A stretch of DNA of 64,000 bases from Flavobacterium limicola (GTDB taxonomy: Bacteria; Bacteroidota; Bacteroidia; Flavobacteriales; Flavobacteriaceae). The stretch lies in the NCBI RefSeq assembly GCF_003634755.1, contig NZ_RBXA01000002.1, forward strand, positions 62,001-126,000, given 5' to 3'. This document shows, in pieces, positions 33,227 to 52,250 of this stretch (positions are counted from its first letter, which is position 1; every line of letters starts with the position of its first letter). Made by a program: the position numbers and the translations under genes. A model generated the notes under the pieces. That model was not told the DNA's origin. It searched no databases and saw only the letters and a program-made list of their open reading frames with translations.

Positions 33227-33307
33227 AGGAGCTATTTCCTGCTATTCGTTACAATCTTTTCTTTTTTAAAGAAATAAAGAAAAGGATTTCCACTACTATC
33301 AGGGCTA
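33227..33307. repeat. Dispersed intergenic repeat A, copy 2
   Basis: Begins AGGAGCTATTTCCTG and ends in CACTACTATCAGGGCTA, matching the ends of 19153-19234. The middle carries inverted arms rich in CTTTTC / GAAAAG. Confidence 0.65.
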
Positions 33308-33318
33308 AAACAAAAACT

Positions 33319-39783: not shown

Positions 39784-39930
39784 TAGGGATTGGGCGTAAC
39801 CCCAAAGCAGAAAATTCCTTTTTCCATTTACGTATCTGCAGCTTTGGGGTCGGGCTTTTGGCTGTATCTTTATTTTTTTAAAGAAAAAAAATAAAGGATG
39901 CCGCCACAATCCCTTACGCGAGCCGCCCGA
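39784..39930. repeat. Complex intergenic inverted-repeat element
   Basis: Multi-arm element: CCCCAAAGC (39800) pairs with GCTTTGGGG (39841). An ATCTTTATTTTTTT stretch pairs with AAAAAAAATAAAGGAT around 39866-39900. The outer parts TAGGGATTGGGCGTAA and AATCCCTTACGC are related. The pattern resembles dispersed flavobacterial repeats. No protein is encoded. Confidence 0.6.
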
Positions 39931-45163: not shown

Positions 45164-46453
45164 TTATGCTAAATACGCTTTCAAATCCTCATACGTTTTA
45201 ATTTTTACTCTTACTTTTTCCTTTCCTAATACGCTTTCAATTTGTGTTGGAATCGGCAGTTTTACGTTTAATGTTGGTTCAACCGTATCCAAAAACTTTA
45301 TTGGGTGGGCAGTTTCCAAGAAAATACCAATCGCATTTGTATGGTTTTGCAATTCTTTTTTCAAACCCAGATATCCAACTGCTCCGTGAGGTTCAGCAAT
45401 GTAGCCATCGGTATTGTAAATGGTTTTCATGGCTTCAATCGTTTCTGCATCAGAGAACGTAAACGAAGAAAAATCTTTTTTGAATTGCTCTAAATCATTG
45501 TGGTACATTTCCTGAATTCGGATAAAATTACTTGGATTTCCCACATCCATCGCATTCGAAATTGTCGCTTTGGAAGGTTTTGGGTCATAAATTCCGTTTT
45601 CTAAAAACCGTGGAACTGTATCATTCACATTTGTGGAAGCTACAAAATGTTCGATTGGCAATCCCATCTTTTTGGCAATGATACCCGCGCAAATATTTCC
45701 AAAATTCCCACTCGGGCAAGAGAAAACTAACAGTTTGTTTTGTTTCTTTAATGCTTTGTACGCAAAGAAGAAATAAAACATTTGTGGCAACCAACGCGCA
45801 ATATTTATCGAATTCGCCGAAGTCAGGTTTTTATGTTTTAAACTTTCGTCCAAGAACGCTTTTTTGACCATATCCTGACAATCATCAAAAACGCCGTCTA
45901 CTTCAAGCGCTTTAATATTCTGACCTAAAGTGGTCAATTGTCGTTCCTGAATATCGCTCACTTTTCCGGATGGATATAGGATTATCACTTCCACGCCTTT
46001 TACACCAAGGAAACCGCTGGCTACAGCACCGCCAGTATCGCCGGAAGTCGCTACCAAAACCGTGTTTTTACTATTGGCGTTATCTTTATTAAAGTAACCC
46101 AAACAACGCGACATGAATCGCGCGCCTACGTCCTTGAAAGCCATCGTTGGGCCATGAAACAATTCAAGGGAATAAATGTCCTTTTCGACTTCCACGACAG
46201 GAAAATCAAAACATAACGTTTCGGCAATGATTTGTTTTAAAGTGTCTGCTGGAATTTTGTCTCCCACAAATTGTTGAATCGCCTCAAAAGCAATTTCTTC
46301 GTTGTTTAAATTTTCGATGTTGTCAAAAAAAGCAGGAGGTAAAGGCGTTATGGTTTCCGGAAAATACAAACCTTTATCAGTAGCTAATCCCTGTATTACG
46401 GCTTCTTTAAAAGAAACTTTGGGTGCGTTATGGTTTAAACTGTAATATTTCAT
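45164..46453 (-). CDS. thrC: Threonine synthase
   Basis: PLP enzyme converting O-phosphohomoserine to threonine. The 429-residue protein has the N-terminal YYSLNHNAPKVSFKEAVIQGLATDKGLYFPE, the PLP-lysine region ELFHGPTMAFKDVGARFMSR (Lys in FKD), VATSGDTGGAVASGFLG, and SCPSGNFGNICAG. It is last in the thrA-thrB-thrC operon and followed by a terminator. It is separated from thrB by 117 bases containing repeat-like sequence. Confidence 0.97.
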   Translation of the reverse strand: MKYYSLNHNAPKVSFKEAVIQGLATDKGLYFPETITPLPPAFFDNIENLNNEEIAFEAIQQFVGDKIPADTLKQIIAETLCFDFPVVEVEKDIYSLELFHGPTMAFKDVGARFMSRCLGYFNKDNANSKNTVLVATSGDTGGAVASGFLGVKGVEVIILYPSGKVSDIQERQLTTLGQNIKALEVDGVFDDCQDMVKKAFLDESLKHKNLTSANSINIARWLPQMFYFFFAYKALKKQNKLLVFSCPSGNFGNICAGIIAKKMGLPIEHFVASTNVNDTVPRFLENGIYDPKPSKATISNAMDVGNPSNFIRIQEMYHNDLEQFKKDFSSFTFSDAETIEAMKTIYNTDGYIAEPHGAVGYLGLKKELQNHTNAIGIFLETAHPIKFLDTVEPTLNVKLPIPTQIESVLGKEKVRVKIKTYEDLKAYLA

Positions 46454-46570: not shown

Positions 46571-47491
46571 TTAAATAATTTTCATCCCTTCATCATTCAC
46601 TTTTGAAACGTGAATTTCATAGGGTAAATTCATTTCGTCGTACACGACGCTCATGGCTTTTGCAATTTTATCAGCGGTTTCCTTTCCTTTGCTTAAGGCA
46701 AAAATAGAAGGACCTGAGCCCGAAATCCCGGAACCTAAAGCCCCGTTTTCTAAAGCCGTTTGCTTGATTAAATCAAATCCGGGAATCAAAACACTTCGCA
46801 ACGGTTCCACAATTTCATCATGTAATGAACGCCCGATTAAGTCATAATCTTTGGTATACAATCCGGCAATTAGTCCGGCCACATTTCCCCATTGCGTAAT
46901 CGCACTTTTCAAGGAAACTGTTTGCTTCAACACCGAACGTGCATCCGAAGTTTTCAACTCAATTTGAGGATGAACCACCGTAGCATACAATTCAGATGGA
47001 CTTTCTATTTTGATAATGTCCAAAGGATTCGAACTTCTCACCAACGTAAATCCACCCAAAAGGGCAGGAGCAACGTTATCGGCATGAGCGTTTCCACTGG
47101 CTAATTTTTCGCCTTGCATAGCAAATAAAACCAATTCTTTTCGTGTAAATGGTCGTCCGAGTAATTCATTGATTCCAAAAACAGCTCCCGCTGAACTTGC
47201 GGCACTGCTTCCAATTCCGCTTCCGGCTTTGATGTGTTTGTAGATTTCGATTTCGAATCCAAATTCCGTTTCAATGGCTTCCAACATCGCCAAAGCTGAT
47301 ACTCCAGCCACATTTTTTTCGGTTTCCAAAGGCAAGTCGGCACCCACAATTTTAGTGATGCGAATCCCTTTCACATCTGATTTCCGAATAATCATTTCGT
47401 CACCAGCAGTTTCTAAACACAGTCCAAGTACATCAAATCCGCAGGAAAGATTAGCGATTGTGGCGGGGCAAAATATTTTTATTTCGTTCAT
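46571..47491 (-). CDS. thrB: Homoserine kinase
   Basis: GHMP kinase phosphorylating L-homoserine with ATP. The 306-residue protein has FCPATIANLSCGFDVLGLCLE at the N-terminus, the ATP loop KAGSGIGSSAASSAGAVFGINELLG, and the C-terminal GALGSGISGSGPSIFAL. It is the middle gene of thrABC, 74 bases after thrA and 117 bases before thrC. Confidence 0.97.
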   Translation of the reverse strand: MNEIKIFCPATIANLSCGFDVLGLCLETAGDEMIIRKSDVKGIRITKIVGADLPLETEKNVAGVSALAMLEAIETEFGFEIEIYKHIKAGSGIGSSAASSAGAVFGINELLGRPFTRKELVLFAMQGEKLASGNAHADNVAPALLGGFTLVRSSNPLDIIKIESPSELYATVVHPQIELKTSDARSVLKQTVSLKSAITQWGNVAGLIAGLYTKDYDLIGRSLHDEIVEPLRSVLIPGFDLIKQTALENGALGSGISGSGPSIFALSKGKETADKIAKAMSVVYDEMNLPYEIHVSKVNDEGMKII

Positions 47492-47565: not shown

Positions 47566-50013
47566 TTATACGTTTCCAATTCTAATTACATCAGCAAATA
47601 TTCCTGAAGCGGTAACCGCAGCTCCGGCACCGGCACCTTTTATTAATAGAGGTTGGTCTACATAACGATCTGTGAAGAATAATACGATATTGTCTTTTCC
47701 TTCCAAATTGTAAAAAGGATGATCTTTAGGAATGAATCTTAAACCAACATTTGCTTTTCCGTTTTCGAATTGCGCTACGTATTTCAAACGAGATTCTTTG
47801 CTTAACGCTTCTTTATAAATAGTTTCAAAATGAGCGGCATGTGTCTGTAAAGATTCGAAAAATGCTTCATTTGAAGTCGTATTCAAACACTCTGCAGGCA
47901 TAAACGATTCGTTTGTAATTTCGTCAATTTCCATTTTATAGCCACTTTCACGAATCAAGATTAATATCTTTCTGGCAACGTCAATTCCGCTTAAATCAAT
48001 CTTAGGATCCGGTTCTGTAAATCCTTGTACTCCTGCTTCTTTTACGACATCATGAAAAGTATTTTTTTCGTCAAAATTATTGAAGATAAAGTTCAAACTT
48101 CCGGATAAAACCGCTTGAATTTTATTCACTTTATCACCTGAGGCAATTAGGTTTTTTACGGTATCAATAATTGGTAATCCCGCACCCACATTAGTTTCAA
48201 ATAGGAAAGGTGCATTGAACTGTCTGGATAATTTTTTTAGTTTTTTGTAATTGTCGTACTCAGAAGCACAAGCAATTTTATTACAAGTTACTACGGCAAT
48301 ATTGCGTTTCAAATACTGTTCGTAGGTTTTAGAGATGCTTTCATTTGCAGTGATATCCACAAAAATACTGTTGCGTAAATTGAGTTCTTTTACATTAGAA
48401 ATAAACTTTTCTTTGTCAGCTGGCTCTCCAGTTTCTAATAAGAACTGCCATTCTTTTAAAGCGATTCCATCTTCATCAAAGTACATTTTTCTGGAATTGG
48501 ACAATGCAATAACGCGCAGGTTTATTTTTAGATTTTCTTTTAGGAATTTCTTTTGTTGGTGAATTTGCTCGATGAATTTCTCTCCCACATTTCCAACGCC
48601 CATCACATATAAGTTCAACTGTTTGGTATTTTCTTCAAAGAAGTTTTCGTGTAAAGTGTTTAATGCTTTTTTAACATCTCTTTCGTTGATTACTGCCGAA
48701 ATATTTCTTTCGGAAGCACCTTGTGCAATCGCTCGGATGTTGACGTTGTTTTTACCTAAAGTGCTGAACATTCTACCGCTCAAACCTTGATGATTTTTCA
48801 TATTTTCGCCTACCAAAGCAATAATGCATAAGTTTTTTTCAACAATACAAGGTTCTATTTTATTTTGTGAAATTTCCACTTCAAAAGCTTTGTTGATGGC
48901 CTCTTCCGCCACATCAGCATCAGAATTTAGAATTCCAATACAAATAGAATGCTCTGATGAGGCTTGAGTGATGAAAATTACGTTGATGTTTTTGTTGGAT
49001 AAAACTTCAAAAAGCCTTTTGGAAGAACCGGAAACACCAATCATTCCAGAGCCTTCAAGCGTAATCAATGTGATTGCATCAATATGTGTAATTCCTTTTA
49101 CGGGATTAGATTGCGCAAAAACCTCATTGGAAATATACGTTCCTTCAGCTGCTGGTTCAAAAGTATTTTTGATCAGAATTGGAATATTTTTTCTCAATAC
49201 TGGTTGGATTGTTGGCGGATATAAAACTTTGGCACCAAAATGAGACAACTCCATCGCTTCCTGATAGGAAATGTAAGCGATAGGCTGCGCTTGTTTTACA
49301 ATTTTTGGATTTGCAGTAAACATTCCGTTGACATCAGTCCAGATTTCCAAGTCATTTGCATCAAGAGCGCCTGCAATAATAGCGGCTGTGTAATCCGATC
49401 CACCGCGACCTAAAGTAGTATTGATACCGTCAAGCGAAGCAGCAATAAATCCCGGCATCACTACCACCTGATTCTCATTCGAAGCAAAAAAGTCTACAAT
49501 TAATTCATTGGAAACATCAAAATTCACGATAGCTTTTCCAAAATGATTATTGGTTTTGATCAATTCACGACTGTCTTTATAACTGCTGTTTTTTAGATTT
49601 TGTTTTAAAGCTTCTGCGATGATATACGAAGACAGTAATTCGCCAAAACTCAAAATTGTGTCTGAAGTTCTGGAAGATAACTCACCCAAAAGATAACATC
49701 CATCCAATAAGGTTTCCAGGTGATTGACGATTCTTTTGATGTGGCTCAAAAGACTGCTTTGTTCGCTTACAGGAATTAGTTCTTTTAAGGCATCTAGGTG
49801 TTTTTTCTCGATTTCGGCAAGAATATCTTTGAAGCTTTCGTCTCCGGCAGCCGCTTTTTGCGAAGCAAGTTGAAGCAAATCAGTAATTTTGCTAAAAGCG
49901 GAAACCACAACGATTAATTTTTCTTCTCTTGCTTTATCGCTAACGATTGCTAAAACCAGTTTTATATTTTGTGCATTGGCAACGGAAGTTCCGCCAAATT
50001 TTAATACTTTCAT
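47566..50013 (-). CDS. thrA: Bifunctional aspartokinase/homoserine dehydrogenase
   Basis: Fusion enzyme catalysing the first and third steps of the aspartate-to-threonine pathway. The start ATG (50011-50013) gives 815 residues beginning MKVLKFGGTSVANAQNIKL; 13 extra upstream residues were rejected. The aspartokinase domain (about 1-300) has KFGGTSVAN, GRGGSDYTAAII and the ACT regulatory domains (about 310-455). The homoserine dehydrogenase domain (about 460-815) has NAD-binding VMGVGNVGEKF, VDITAN, TNVGAGLPII and GFTEPDPKIDLSG. It leads the thrABC operon and is preceded by a Thr-rich leader peptide. ACT domains suggest feedback by threonine. Confidence 0.97.
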   Translation of the reverse strand: MKVLKFGGTSVANAQNIKLVLAIVSDKAREEKLIVVVSAFSKITDLLQLASQKAAAGDESFKDILAEIEKKHLDALKELIPVSEQSSLLSHIKRIVNHLETLLDGCYLLGELSSRTSDTILSFGELLSSYIIAEALKQNLKNSSYKDSRELIKTNNHFGKAIVNFDVSNELIVDFFASNENQVVVMPGFIAASLDGINTTLGRGGSDYTAAIIAGALDANDLEIWTDVNGMFTANPKIVKQAQPIAYISYQEAMELSHFGAKVLYPPTIQPVLRKNIPILIKNTFEPAAEGTYISNEVFAQSNPVKGITHIDAITLITLEGSGMIGVSGSSKRLFEVLSNKNINVIFITQASSEHSICIGILNSDADVAEEAINKAFEVEISQNKIEPCIVEKNLCIIALVGENMKNHQGLSGRMFSTLGKNNVNIRAIAQGASERNISAVINERDVKKALNTLHENFFEENTKQLNLYVMGVGNVGEKFIEQIHQQKKFLKENLKINLRVIALSNSRKMYFDEDGIALKEWQFLLETGEPADKEKFISNVKELNLRNSIFVDITANESISKTYEQYLKRNIAVVTCNKIACASEYDNYKKLKKLSRQFNAPFLFETNVGAGLPIIDTVKNLIASGDKVNKIQAVLSGSLNFIFNNFDEKNTFHDVVKEAGVQGFTEPDPKIDLSGIDVARKILILIRESGYKMEIDEITNESFMPAECLNTTSNEAFFESLQTHAAHFETIYKEALSKESRLKYVAQFENGKANVGLRFIPKDHPFYNLEGKDNIVLFFTDRYVDQPLLIKGAGAGAAVTASGIFADVIRIGNV

Positions 50014-50185
50014 AACGAAGTTATTTGTTTTAATGTAATAGGAAATTGCCATTTTCTAGATTAATGGAATGTGGGCGATGTAATGATGTGTGCTGTTTTT
50101 TTGAAAAATGTAATGTTTATTATATACCCAAGTACTTTCTTTTCTTGAGAAAAAAATATAATAAATAGGATTATATGTAGAATGT

Positions 50186-50290
50186 TTACCCCAAAGGGGT
50201 AGTTGTAGTTGTTGTAGTAAACGTAACAGCAGTGCCAACCCAGATTTGAGTTGTTATCGAAGAGTGATATGTAGCTTTATTGTTTACCAT
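50186..50290 (-). CDS. Threonine-rich leader peptide of the thr operon
   Basis: Minus-strand frame of 34 codons, ATG at 50290 to TAA at 50186. Twelve of 34 residues are Thr, including seven consecutive Thr codons in TAVTFTTTTTTTPLG, directly before the stop. It also has Ile codons and one Trp. It lies 173 bases upstream of thrA, in the same orientation, with a perfect TACTTTTG -7 box ten bases before the ATG. This matches the logic of E. coli thrL, where ribosome stalling at Thr/Ile codons controls operon transcription. It shares no sequence with thrL. A terminator/antiterminator was not clearly resolved. Confidence 0.85.
   Translation of the reverse strand: MVNNKATYHSSITTQIWVGTAVTFTTTTTTTPLG
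50188..50200 (-). promoter_or_regulatory. Small hairpin at the end of the thr leader
   Basis: Stem ACCCC / GGGGT with a TTT loop covers the last Pro-Leu-Gly codons and touches the stop codon. No T run follows, so it may be a pause or part of an alternative structure rather than a terminator. Confidence 0.45.
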
Positions 50291-50300
50291 TTTGATATTC

Positions 50301-50308
50301 CAAAAGTA
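50301..50308 (-). promoter_or_regulatory. -7 promoter box of the thr leader and thrABC
   Basis: TACTTTTG on the minus strand matches TAnnTTTG exactly, ten bases before the leader ATG. Confidence 0.65.
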
Positions 50309-50714
50309 CAGTTTTTTATAAAAAAATAAAGCGTTCAATAGCGTTTTTACGAATATTTGAAAATAGTAGAGGCTATTTGCGGATTATGAAATATTGTATG
50401 GTATATCAAGTCTCTAATAAAGCTATTCGTAATATTCGCTAAATTTTTCAAATAATTATAAGTATTGAAGTATAATTTTAGCAGGTATGAATGATGTAAT
50501 TCGTTAATAATCAAATTAAAATTGTGTAGAATAAGTTTGTTTTGGTACGTAAAAGATTTGTTTACTTATAAAGAGAACAAATATGATAATTACAAATAAA
50601 GTATTGTAAGCGTATAAGAATATTTGCATGAAATCTAATTTTTGGTTTTGTTTAACGAGTAAGTTTAAATTATTAGCAATAAATGTTGTGTAATTATAAA
50701 GATTTATTCAATTT
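50309..50714. other. Divergent intergenic region, thr leader to hutH
   Basis: AT-rich gap of about 400 bases between two divergent promoters. No gene, RNA or clear operator was recognised. Confidence 0.5.
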
Positions 50715-50722
50715 TACCTTTT
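50715..50722 (+). promoter_or_regulatory. Possible -7 promoter box of hutH
   Basis: TACCTTTT is one base off TAnnTTTG, 13 bases before the hutH ATG. Confidence 0.4.
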
Positions 50723-50735
50723 AAACACTATCAAA

Positions 50736-52250
50736 ATGGATAATACGCATTATATTAGTACTGAATTACTTAGTCTGGAAATACTGGAGGAAATTGTTTC
50801 TCATAATAAATCATTGGCTTTGTCTGATGAGGCGAAAATAAATATTCAAAAATGTCGTGATTATTTAGACAAAAAAATGGCTTCGCATTCGGATCCTATT
50901 TATGGTATAAATACAGGTTTCGGATCACTTTGTAATGTAAAAATATCCAACGAGAATCTATCAAAACTTCAGGAAAATTTAGTGAAATCGCATTCTTGCG
51001 GTACGGGAGAGGAAGTACCAATCGAAATTGTGAAACTGATGTTGTTGCTTAAAATCCAGTCACTCAGTTATGGACATTCCGGAATTCAATTGCAAACAGT
51101 GGAACGTTTGATTGCATTTTATAATAATGACATTCTGCCGGTAATTTACACGCAAGGTTCACTGGGAGCTTCGGGAGATTTAGCACCTTTGGCACATTTA
51201 TCATTACCTTTATTAGGAGAAGGCGAGGTGTATTTTGAAGGGAAAAAAGTGCATTCCAGCGAAATTTTGAAACATTTTGATTGGGAACCGATTGTTTTGC
51301 AGTCAAAAGAAGGATTGGCTTTGTTGAACGGAACGCAGTTTATGAGTGCTTATGGAGCGCATATTTTGATGAAAGTCAGCAAATTTTCTTATTTGGCTGA
51401 TTTGATAGGAACAATTTCACTTGAAGGTTTTGATGGAAGAATTGAACCTTTCAATGAATTGATCCATTTTATACGACCTCACAAAGGACAAATTGTAACA
51501 GCCAACCGCATAAAAGGATTTTTGGAAGGTAGTGAAATTATCGAACAGCCAAAAAACCACGTTCAGGATCCGTATTCGTTCCGATGTATGCCACAAGTAC
51601 ATGGCGCCTCAAAAGATGCGATTGATTATGTCAAAAAAGTGTTTAAGACTGAAATCAATTCAGTTACAGATAATCCTAATATTTTTATTGAAAGTGACCA
51701 AATCATTTCCGGAGGGAATTTTCACGGACAACCTTTGGCTTTAGCCTTAGATTTTATGGCCATTGCTTTAGCTGAATTGGGAAGTATTTCGGAGCGAAGA
51801 ACCTATCAATTGATTTCAGGAACAAGAAATCTTCCGGCATTTTTAGTAGATAATCCAGGATTGAATTCTGGTTTGATGATTCCACAATACACAGCTGCTA
51901 GTATTGCCAGCCAAAATAAACAACTGGCAACTCCCGCCAGCGTTGATAGTATTGTTTCCAGTAACGGGCAGGAAGATCATGTAAGTATGGGCGCAAATGC
52001 CGCTACGAAAGCATTACGTGTTTTGGATAATTTGGAACGAATTTTAGCAATCGAATTAATGAATGCTTCTCAAGCCATTGAATACAGACGACCATTGCAG
52101 TCCAGTGATTTTATTGAAATGTTTTTAAATGCGTATCGAAAAGAAGTTCCTTTGATTAAAGAGGACCGAATTTTGCATTATGATATTGAAAAGACAGTTT
52201 CTTTTTTAAACAGTTTTCAAATCGAAGACGATTTGTTAACAATAGCTTAA
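50736..52250 (+). CDS. hutH: Histidine ammonia-lyase
   Basis: MIO-dependent lyase deaminating L-histidine to urocanate. The 504-residue protein contains YGINTGFGSLCN, the selectivity region VKSHSCGTG (His86, typical for histidine rather than tyrosine or phenylalanine substrates), and GSLGASGDLAPLAH, where Ala145-Ser146-Gly147 form the MIO cofactor. Further conserved are TDNPNIF and QDPYSFRCMPQVHG. The other hut genes (hutU, hutI, hutG) are not adjacent, so degradation genes must be elsewhere or the enzyme acts alone. Confidence 0.93.
   Translation: MDNTHYISTELLSLEILEEIVSHNKSLALSDEAKINIQKCRDYLDKKMASHSDPIYGINTGFGSLCNVKISNENLSKLQENLVKSHSCGTGEEVPIEIVKLMLLLKIQSLSYGHSGIQLQTVERLIAFYNNDILPVIYTQGSLGASGDLAPLAHLSLPLLGEGEVYFEGKKVHSSEILKHFDWEPIVLQSKEGLALLNGTQFMSAYGAHILMKVSKFSYLADLIGTISLEGFDGRIEPFNELIHFIRPHKGQIVTANRIKGFLEGSEIIEQPKNHVQDPYSFRCMPQVHGASKDAIDYVKKVFKTEINSVTDNPNIFIESDQIISGGNFHGQPLALALDFMAIALAELGSISERRTYQLISGTRNLPAFLVDNPGLNSGLMIPQYTAASIASQNKQLATPASVDSIVSSNGQEDHVSMGANAATKALRVLDNLERILAIELMNASQAIEYRRPLQSSDFIEMFLNAYRKEVPLIKEDRILHYDIEKTVSFLNSFQIEDDLLTIA

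Follow-up and report, generated by a model that had tools for sequence, protein, structure and literature searches.

Attenuation is taught as the combination of a leader peptide with an intrinsic terminator. For Flavobacterium psychrophilum, clues for leader-peptide attenuation before amino-acid operons have been presented, and the pheA, hisG and other elements are present in other genera as well, as far as the main text of PMC9723704 goes; thrA, the thr operon, threonine and homoserine are absent from that main text. The first-pass annotation of the locus described here had called its threonine leader little-described. This holds for the thr element within the open papers searched, but leader-peptide attenuation as a general idea has already been published for Flavobacterium (PMC9723704). 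Parts of PMC7366714 mention short ORFs in Bacteroides that are reminiscent of leader peptides, parts of PMC4833913 name Bacteroidetes and do not name threonine, PMC2965389 contains none of six thr/Bacteroidetes terms, and a Rho-dependent leader-ORF switch of the topAI type is reportedly the subject of PMC12121999. In the titles and abstract openings of the open literature searched, we found no thr leader of Bacteroidota. Vitreschak et al. (2004) reportedly predicted threonine attenuators, and some of the attenuators of that study are said to lie in Bacteroidetes/Chlorobi; Lopatovskaya et al. (2010) may also predict a thr leader in Bacteroidota. Since the attenuation idea has been printed for Flavobacterium and the 2004 and 2010 papers may predict a thr leader, any novelty of the present locus is limited to its architecture, and to the literature that could be searched.

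The window, that is, the whole stretch of DNA analysed, comprises 64,000 nucleotides of the genome of Flavobacterium limicola. The thr locus within it consists of the following features:

50301..50308, minus strand: -7 promoter box TACTTTTG of the leader transcript, a perfect match to the Bacteroidota TAnnTTTG that ends 10 bases 5' of the leader ATG
50186..50290, minus strand: Thr-rich leader ORF of 34 codons (ATG 50290-50288, TAA 50188-50186)
50198..50218, minus strand: run of seven Thr codons, the putative regulatory codons, read from the sequence; among relatives, codons -1 to -3 before the hairpin H1 (see below) are Thr in 51-52 of 54 genus loci
47566..50013, minus strand: thrA, bifunctional aspartate kinase/homoserine dehydrogenase I (NF006959, 1052 bits, cut-off 726)
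46571..47491, minus strand: thrB, homoserine kinase (TIGR00191 and NF002288 above cut-off)
45164..46453, minus strand: thrC, threonine synthase (TIGR00260 above cut-off)

All three genes reach NCBIfam equivalog cut-offs and follow the leader in the order thrA-thrB-thrC. The closest named match to thrA among those listed comes from Flavobacterium sinopsychrotolerans (98%), in a scan of bacterial genomes that possibly did not contain the own genome. The leader peptide, MVNNKATYHSSITTQIWVGTAVTFTTTTTTTPLG, has 12 Thr among 34 residues, seven of them consecutive, and then ends in Pro-Leu-Gly and the stop. Sequence and translation therefore bear out the 34-codon frame with 12 Thr and seven in a row that had been noticed at first sight, but the run does not lie directly before the stop, since Pro-Leu-Gly intervenes. 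The leader was also correctly placed upstream of thrA in the same orientation; however, 172 and not 173 bases separate the leader stop from the thrA ATG (50013). The perfect -7 box ten bases before the leader start was confirmed at 50308-50301, and it is the single TAnnTTTG in the 500 bases 5' of thrA in the window.

No Rfam covariance model, Thr_leader included, matched the leader region at its gathering score, and at E-values up to 1 the region gave one snoRNA match far under its cut-off. Elsewhere in the window, the minus strand carries two matches to the Flavo-1 RNA (Rfam RF01705, a motif of unknown function) at 33231-33310 and 39844-39924, with 81.7 and 52.8 bits. A plus-strand ORF of 504 residues (window 50736-52250), which by eye looks like a histidine ammonia-lyase, is divergent from the thr leader, so that the stretch 50309-50735 is upstream of both.

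The comparison with relatives is based on three sets of thrA upstream regions. The same-genus set stems from 60 of the 119 other genomes with a match, chosen by us and mostly with full-length matches; two of its loci (L060, L061) belong to a paralogue with 38% identity and are the sole two controls. The second genus set is made up of the 80 named Flavobacterium loci that were retained from 332 matches, and it overlaps with the first, as 14 of the 80 are identical to a same-genus locus over 120 bases around H1. The other-genus set holds 68 loci of the family, namely the 28 best-scoring matches and 40 hand-picked ones, drawn from 146 genomes that gave a match.

The alignment of Flavobacterium thrA upstream regions, proposed by the first-pass annotation as a check, showed the Thr-codon frame to be kept. 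A frame with at least six Thr lies upstream of thrA in 54 of the 58 same-genus orthologues, next to that in the window, and in neither of the two paralogue controls. A strict scripted test, defined as Thr/Ile codons running into an ACCC-loop-GGG hairpin, was passed by the window and by 53 of the 60 same-genus loci (the seven failures include both paralogue controls), by all 80 named Flavobacterium loci and by 57 of the 68 loci from other genera of the family. Four of the loci that failed it (L058, L102, L224, L230) nevertheless possess Thr and/or Ile leaders by eye. A covariance model (R1) found 22 of 299 family genomes at E 0.001, including the own and one same-genus genome; since this is far below the scripted 57 of 68, R1 was used as a finder only and not as a census. 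In six loci (L225, L233, L236 and, from outside the family, L282, L284, L286) no Thr leader was seen and thrA lies directly behind another gene, the end of which looks by eye like that of a threonine dehydratase.

In the other genera, codon -1 before the hairpin is Thr in 31 of 57 loci and Ile in 19, with other residues also occurring, and over codons -1 to -6 Ile is the commonest replacement of Thr. Since all four Thr codons are used across the loci and Thr and Ile share the same places, it is the amino acids that are conserved and not a DNA repeat. The promoter box is kept as well: all 54 same-genus loci, all 80 named ones and 49 of the 57 from other genera have TAnnTTTG 2-30 bases ahead of an in-frame leader ATG, with 2.0, 2.2 and 3.3 loci expected after shuffling, and the median spacing of the box to the ATG is 10, 10 and 18 bases, respectively. 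Between H1 and thrA, such a box was found in 3/54, 1/80 and 10/57 loci. The conserved frame, its Thr codons, the promoter box and the position together strongly support the prediction of a Thr-sensing leader peptide for thrABC. That the frame might be a chance reading of a repeat without function is extremely improbable, given its conservation despite synonymous codon change, the promoter box in place and its absence before the two paralogue loci.

Downstream of the Thr run, four RNA segments have to be considered:

50187..50201, minus strand: hairpin H1, UACCCC-UUU-GGGGUA, which spans the end of the leader frame into its stop codon (mean pair probability of the G-run with the 5' arm 0.86-0.97)
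50168..50178, minus strand: segment 3, the conserved linear element ACAUAUAAUCC, defined by conservation among relatives
50137..50156, minus strand: hairpin H2, U-rich/A-rich, without a U-tract after it in the window, taken from the minimum-energy fold of the window
50121..50132, minus strand: segment 4 (UUGGGUAUAUAA), which can pair with segment 3 around H2 and was recognised by eye in one Flavobacterium clade

The position of H1 at the leader stop codon is well kept, as an in-frame stop follows 6-18 bases after the H1 start in 52/54 genus, 80/80 named and 51/57 other-genus loci and the remaining frames run on only slightly. The loop has 3-4 bases and the stem mostly 5-6 pairs, with variants in the stem sequence, although the search pattern predetermines the inner pairs in part. 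Most members of one other-genus clade have CAACCC..GGGUUG instead, and outside the family H1 is flipped by eye to ACGGGG-stop-CCCGU in three loci (L283, L287, L291). With the leader RNA intact, the G-run is predicted to pair with the 5' arm at probabilities of 0.97 in clade A, 0.96 in clade B and 0.86 in the other genera.

The CAUAUAAUCC / CATATAATCC core of segment 3 is exact in 38 of 54 genus loci, and elsewhere AUAUCAUCC-, AUAUCGCC- or UAUAUUCUUCCG-like variants were recognised by eye. The exact ACATATAATCC has five copies in the own genome, of which by eye only the thr copy follows a leader; the other four lie in coding or unrelated sequence, and the idea of a regulon-wide signal was dropped. 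In two genus loci (L014, L038) the leader frame passes through the hairpin and stops inside CATATAATCC, which means that the leader stop can shift without displacing the RNA element.

In the folding predictions, segment 3 is unpaired when H1 forms with probabilities of 0.63 (clade A), 0.70 (clade B) and 0.84 (other genera, where the six bases richest in pyrimidines were taken as segment 3). Masking of the 5' arm lets the G-run pair with segment 3 at mean probabilities of 0.33, 0.24 and 0.20, respectively, these values being given without a shuffled control, and the probability exceeds 0.3 in 17/34, 7/20 and 15/57 loci. In the flipped loci L283, L287 and L291 segment 2 is C-rich, so the 2:3 helix is not kept there. 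The masked-arm folding would thus fit a switch in which H1 exposes segment 3 and stalling hides it, but the predicted pairing is no more than moderate and the flipped loci lack it.

It is also possible that H1 acts mainly as a pause hairpin. Pause geometry is known from enterobacterial his and trp leaders; here, polymerase would halt about 11 bases downstream, at the start of the AU-rich element, which would then act inside the paused polymerase. The short and similar spacing between hairpin and element agrees with such a role, as does a conservation that concerns the linear sequence and not a partner; yet a pause alone gives no regulation, and we regard this explanation as unlikely. It overlaps with the switch that we prefer, so the chances given to the two are not exclusive.

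The first-pass annotation had envisaged a transcription attenuator like those of enterobacteria and had asked which hairpins form its terminator and antiterminator. A terminator scan (stem of at least 5 pairs, at least 3 of them GC, and at least 5 T in 7; simple shuffles; his leaders as the positive control) found no canonical hairpin with U-tract between leader and thrA in the window. Among the relatives it was positive in 4/54 same-genus, 8/80 named and 4/57 other-genus thr regions (16 of 191 in all), which exceeds the 0.3, 0.3 and 0.5 expected in shuffles. However, H1 itself, followed by a few Ts, accounts for 13 of these 16 matches; in the remaining three (L008, L136, L114) it is H2 that carries a T-run, L008 and L136 lying on contigs of equal length and sharing one match. 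By eye, a T-run also follows H2 in L291, outside the family, and some H2s may be real terminators.

Of 27 his leader regions from the genus, 25 were positive in the same scan, and by eye all 27 have a CCCG..CGGG hairpin and then a T-run, with the terminator form CCCGTTTGAGTACATCAAACGGG-TTTTTT. This his set comprises the own genome (L067) and L240-L265, hisG having been found in 27 of the 41 genomes examined. Intrinsic terminators thus do occur in an amino-acid leader of this genus, a pattern that the thr leader does not follow. With no canonical terminator in the window, as compared to 25 of 27 his regions, the data do not support an attenuator laid out as in enterobacteria, and the earlier question of which hairpin is the terminator finds no canonical candidate there.

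The classical his leader of the own genome, MFTNQLHHHHFHYCSQAMC (L067 1174-1351), has its intrinsic terminator before hisG. In many his loci, both the terminator loop and the hisG start ATGAGTACA have their complement in a downstream TTTGTACTCA, which hints at a masking of the start codon.

Even so, classical attenuation could rely on a weak or unusual, A+U-rich intrinsic terminator, formed by segments 3:4 around H2 or by H2 alone, with 2:3 as the antiterminator. The order 1:2 / 2:3 / 3:4 is that of the textbook, the minimum-energy fold of the window contains the 3:4 pairing, 17 of the 34 loci in the segment-4 clade have segment 3 paired with downstream sequence above 0.3, and H2 is followed by a T-run in the few loci named above. 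However, the window lacks a U-tract after segment 4, and by eye neither the other Flavobacterium clade nor the other genera show a segment 4; pairing of segment 3 with downstream sequence exceeds 0.3 there in only 6/20 and 5/57 loci. Moreover, segment 4 changes from GGAT to GAAT, GAGT and CACA with no matching change in segment 3. Segments 3:4 were therefore rejected as a universal terminator, as segment 4 is confined by eye to the one clade, and we consider classical attenuation improbable.

Compared with dinucleotide shuffles, the H2 region reaches a mean z of -1.40 both in 54 genus and in 57 other-genus loci, and z is below -1 in 32/54 and 37/57 of them. In an alignment of 12 sequences from one other-genus clade, H2 shows two-sided changes at 3 pairs. 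Over the whole structure, which was drawn from the same sequences as those tested, 7 cells are changed on both sides, a value reached by 0 of 500 shuffles; the number of pairs with two-sided change is unexceptional alone (95 of 500 shuffles). The compensatory changes that the first-pass annotation had proposed to look for are hence present in H2, in one other-genus clade, but H1 has no two-sided change in that 12-sequence alignment and the segment 4 variants are uncompensated. A complementarity of one H2 arm to the thrA start, noticed by eye, is not kept in relatives and was discarded.

Outside the family we inspected 61 loci (L273-L313 and L314-L333, with one genome twice and L300 left out), which were read by eye and unscored. 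Fourteen of them have a leader with H1 at the stop (L274, L276, L277, L278, L280, L283, L287, L291, L314, L318, L325, L327, L328, L329), although in L325, L327, L328 and L329 no clear AUAUCAUCC-like element was seen by eye. Five others (L288, L290, L296, L320, L331) combine, by eye, a Thr or Thr/Ile leader with a canonical terminator, and within the Flavobacteriaceae a Thr-rich leader is joined in L230 by a hairpin with T-run. L326, with a terminator and no clear leader, was kept out of the counts. In the remaining outside-family loci no clear leader was seen by eye, and in some of them thrA follows another gene. The set of H1, element and H2 and the canonical terminator therefore seem interchangeable, which suggests that the former does the job of the latter.

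Another possibility is a control at the level of translation, where the leader ribosome would alter the folding near the thrA start or reinitiate there and transcription would not be stopped. In favour of such control, no more than 125 bases separate the start of H1 from the thrA ATG in 51 of 57 other-genus loci, with H2 shortly upstream of thrA there, and a canonical terminator was not found. On the other hand, H1 and thrA are 187 bases apart in the window, and as many as 276-285 in other loci with the core kept, and L230, L288, L290, L296, L320 and L331 do have an intrinsic terminator between leader and thrA. We therefore judge translational control to be quite unlikely.

The reading that we prefer, and that we judge slightly more probable than not, is that stalling at the Thr/Ile codons decides on the formation of H1 and that the output is not an intrinsic terminator but possibly Rho-dependent. 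As judged from the -7 box and its spacing of 10, the thrABC transcript would begin just a few bases 5' of the leader ATG, and a ribosome would translate the leader at once after transcription start. With enough charged Thr-tRNA (plus Ile-tRNA in related genera) this ribosome would reach the stop codon and leave, whereupon H1 (ACCCC:GGGGU) would form at the stop codon and CAUAUAAUCC would stay single-stranded, corresponding to the OFF state. Under Thr shortage, it would stall on the Thr run and cover the 5' arm of H1, and in this putative ON state the freed G-run would pair with CAUAUAAUCC or otherwise prevent its use. The identity of the output step is the part that we word most cautiously. 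As an intrinsic terminator is lacking, the most likely reader of the OFF state would be a factor, Rho being the first candidate, or else a pause-based mechanism.

The own genome codes for Rho (NF006886 631 bits, TIGR00767 592 bits, both above cut-off). Between H1 and thrA, C exceeds G in the same-genus set (0.142 vs 0.100; in 43 of 54 loci) and among the named Flavobacterium loci (0.131 vs 0.105; 61 of 80), as compared to 0.135 vs 0.111 (19 of 31) in 5' regions of the window that served as a composition control; the other genera have 0.177 vs 0.077 (56 of 57), without a matched control. The C-over-G excess of a Rho loading site is thus weak in Flavobacterium and clear in the other genera, for which a matched control is lacking. 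Because Rho is encoded and the composition favours C over G, we hold Rho as the first candidate rather than name it as the factor. However, Rho is not known to require a linear motif this long, which counts against a reading by Rho, and its role as the output factor is, in our estimation, conceivable but more doubtful than probable. The own-genome Rho (L334 1468-3114) contains, by eye, a long low-complexity insertion after its N-terminal domain, at about residues 60-230 of the frame.

The locus is a real, conserved threonine leader, which would be attenuator-like as a sensor, but its membership among the classical attenuators fails on the terminator. The sensor is kept across the family and seen beyond it, and the canonical terminator is mostly absent, in a genus whose his leaders follow the textbook. 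This provides a defined and testable case of how Bacteroidota may couple leader translation to operon expression, and it adds a conserved RNA word of 10-11 bases as well as a short gene and an element, neither of which has a counterpart among the Rfam families. As a wider proposal, which we put forward tentatively and think somewhat more apt to be revised than to stand, much of the phylum might use a threonine attenuator without intrinsic terminator, in which a hairpin at the stop codon exposes or hides a AUAUCAUCC-like RNA word read by Rho or another RNA-binding partner; other Bacteroidota would use an ordinary terminator, and the two designs would have replaced each other under one leader peptide.

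Compared to the described systems, the locus resembles the enterobacterial thrL attenuator in its Thr-rich leader (plus Ile in related genera) just upstream of thrABC and in the same direction. Unlike thrL, the element in the window has no U-tract terminator, a short GC hairpin at the leader stop, a conserved linear element and no Rfam match. With the his leaders of its own genus it shares a leader with an amino-acid run directly upstream of the operon, but differs from them in that the his leaders have the standard terminator. The 5' elements of F. psychrophilum come from the same genus and, in the part of PMC9723704 that concerns amino-acid operons, were likewise proposed to act by leader-peptide attenuation upstream of them. 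Finally, the Rho-dependent leader-ORF switches tnaC, mgtL and topAI differ in their regulatory codons, which in the thr leader are plain Thr/Ile runs, and a role of Rho is putative in the present case; nevertheless, these switches resemble the thr leader in having a short leader ORF, no intrinsic terminator and Rho as a candidate for the output.
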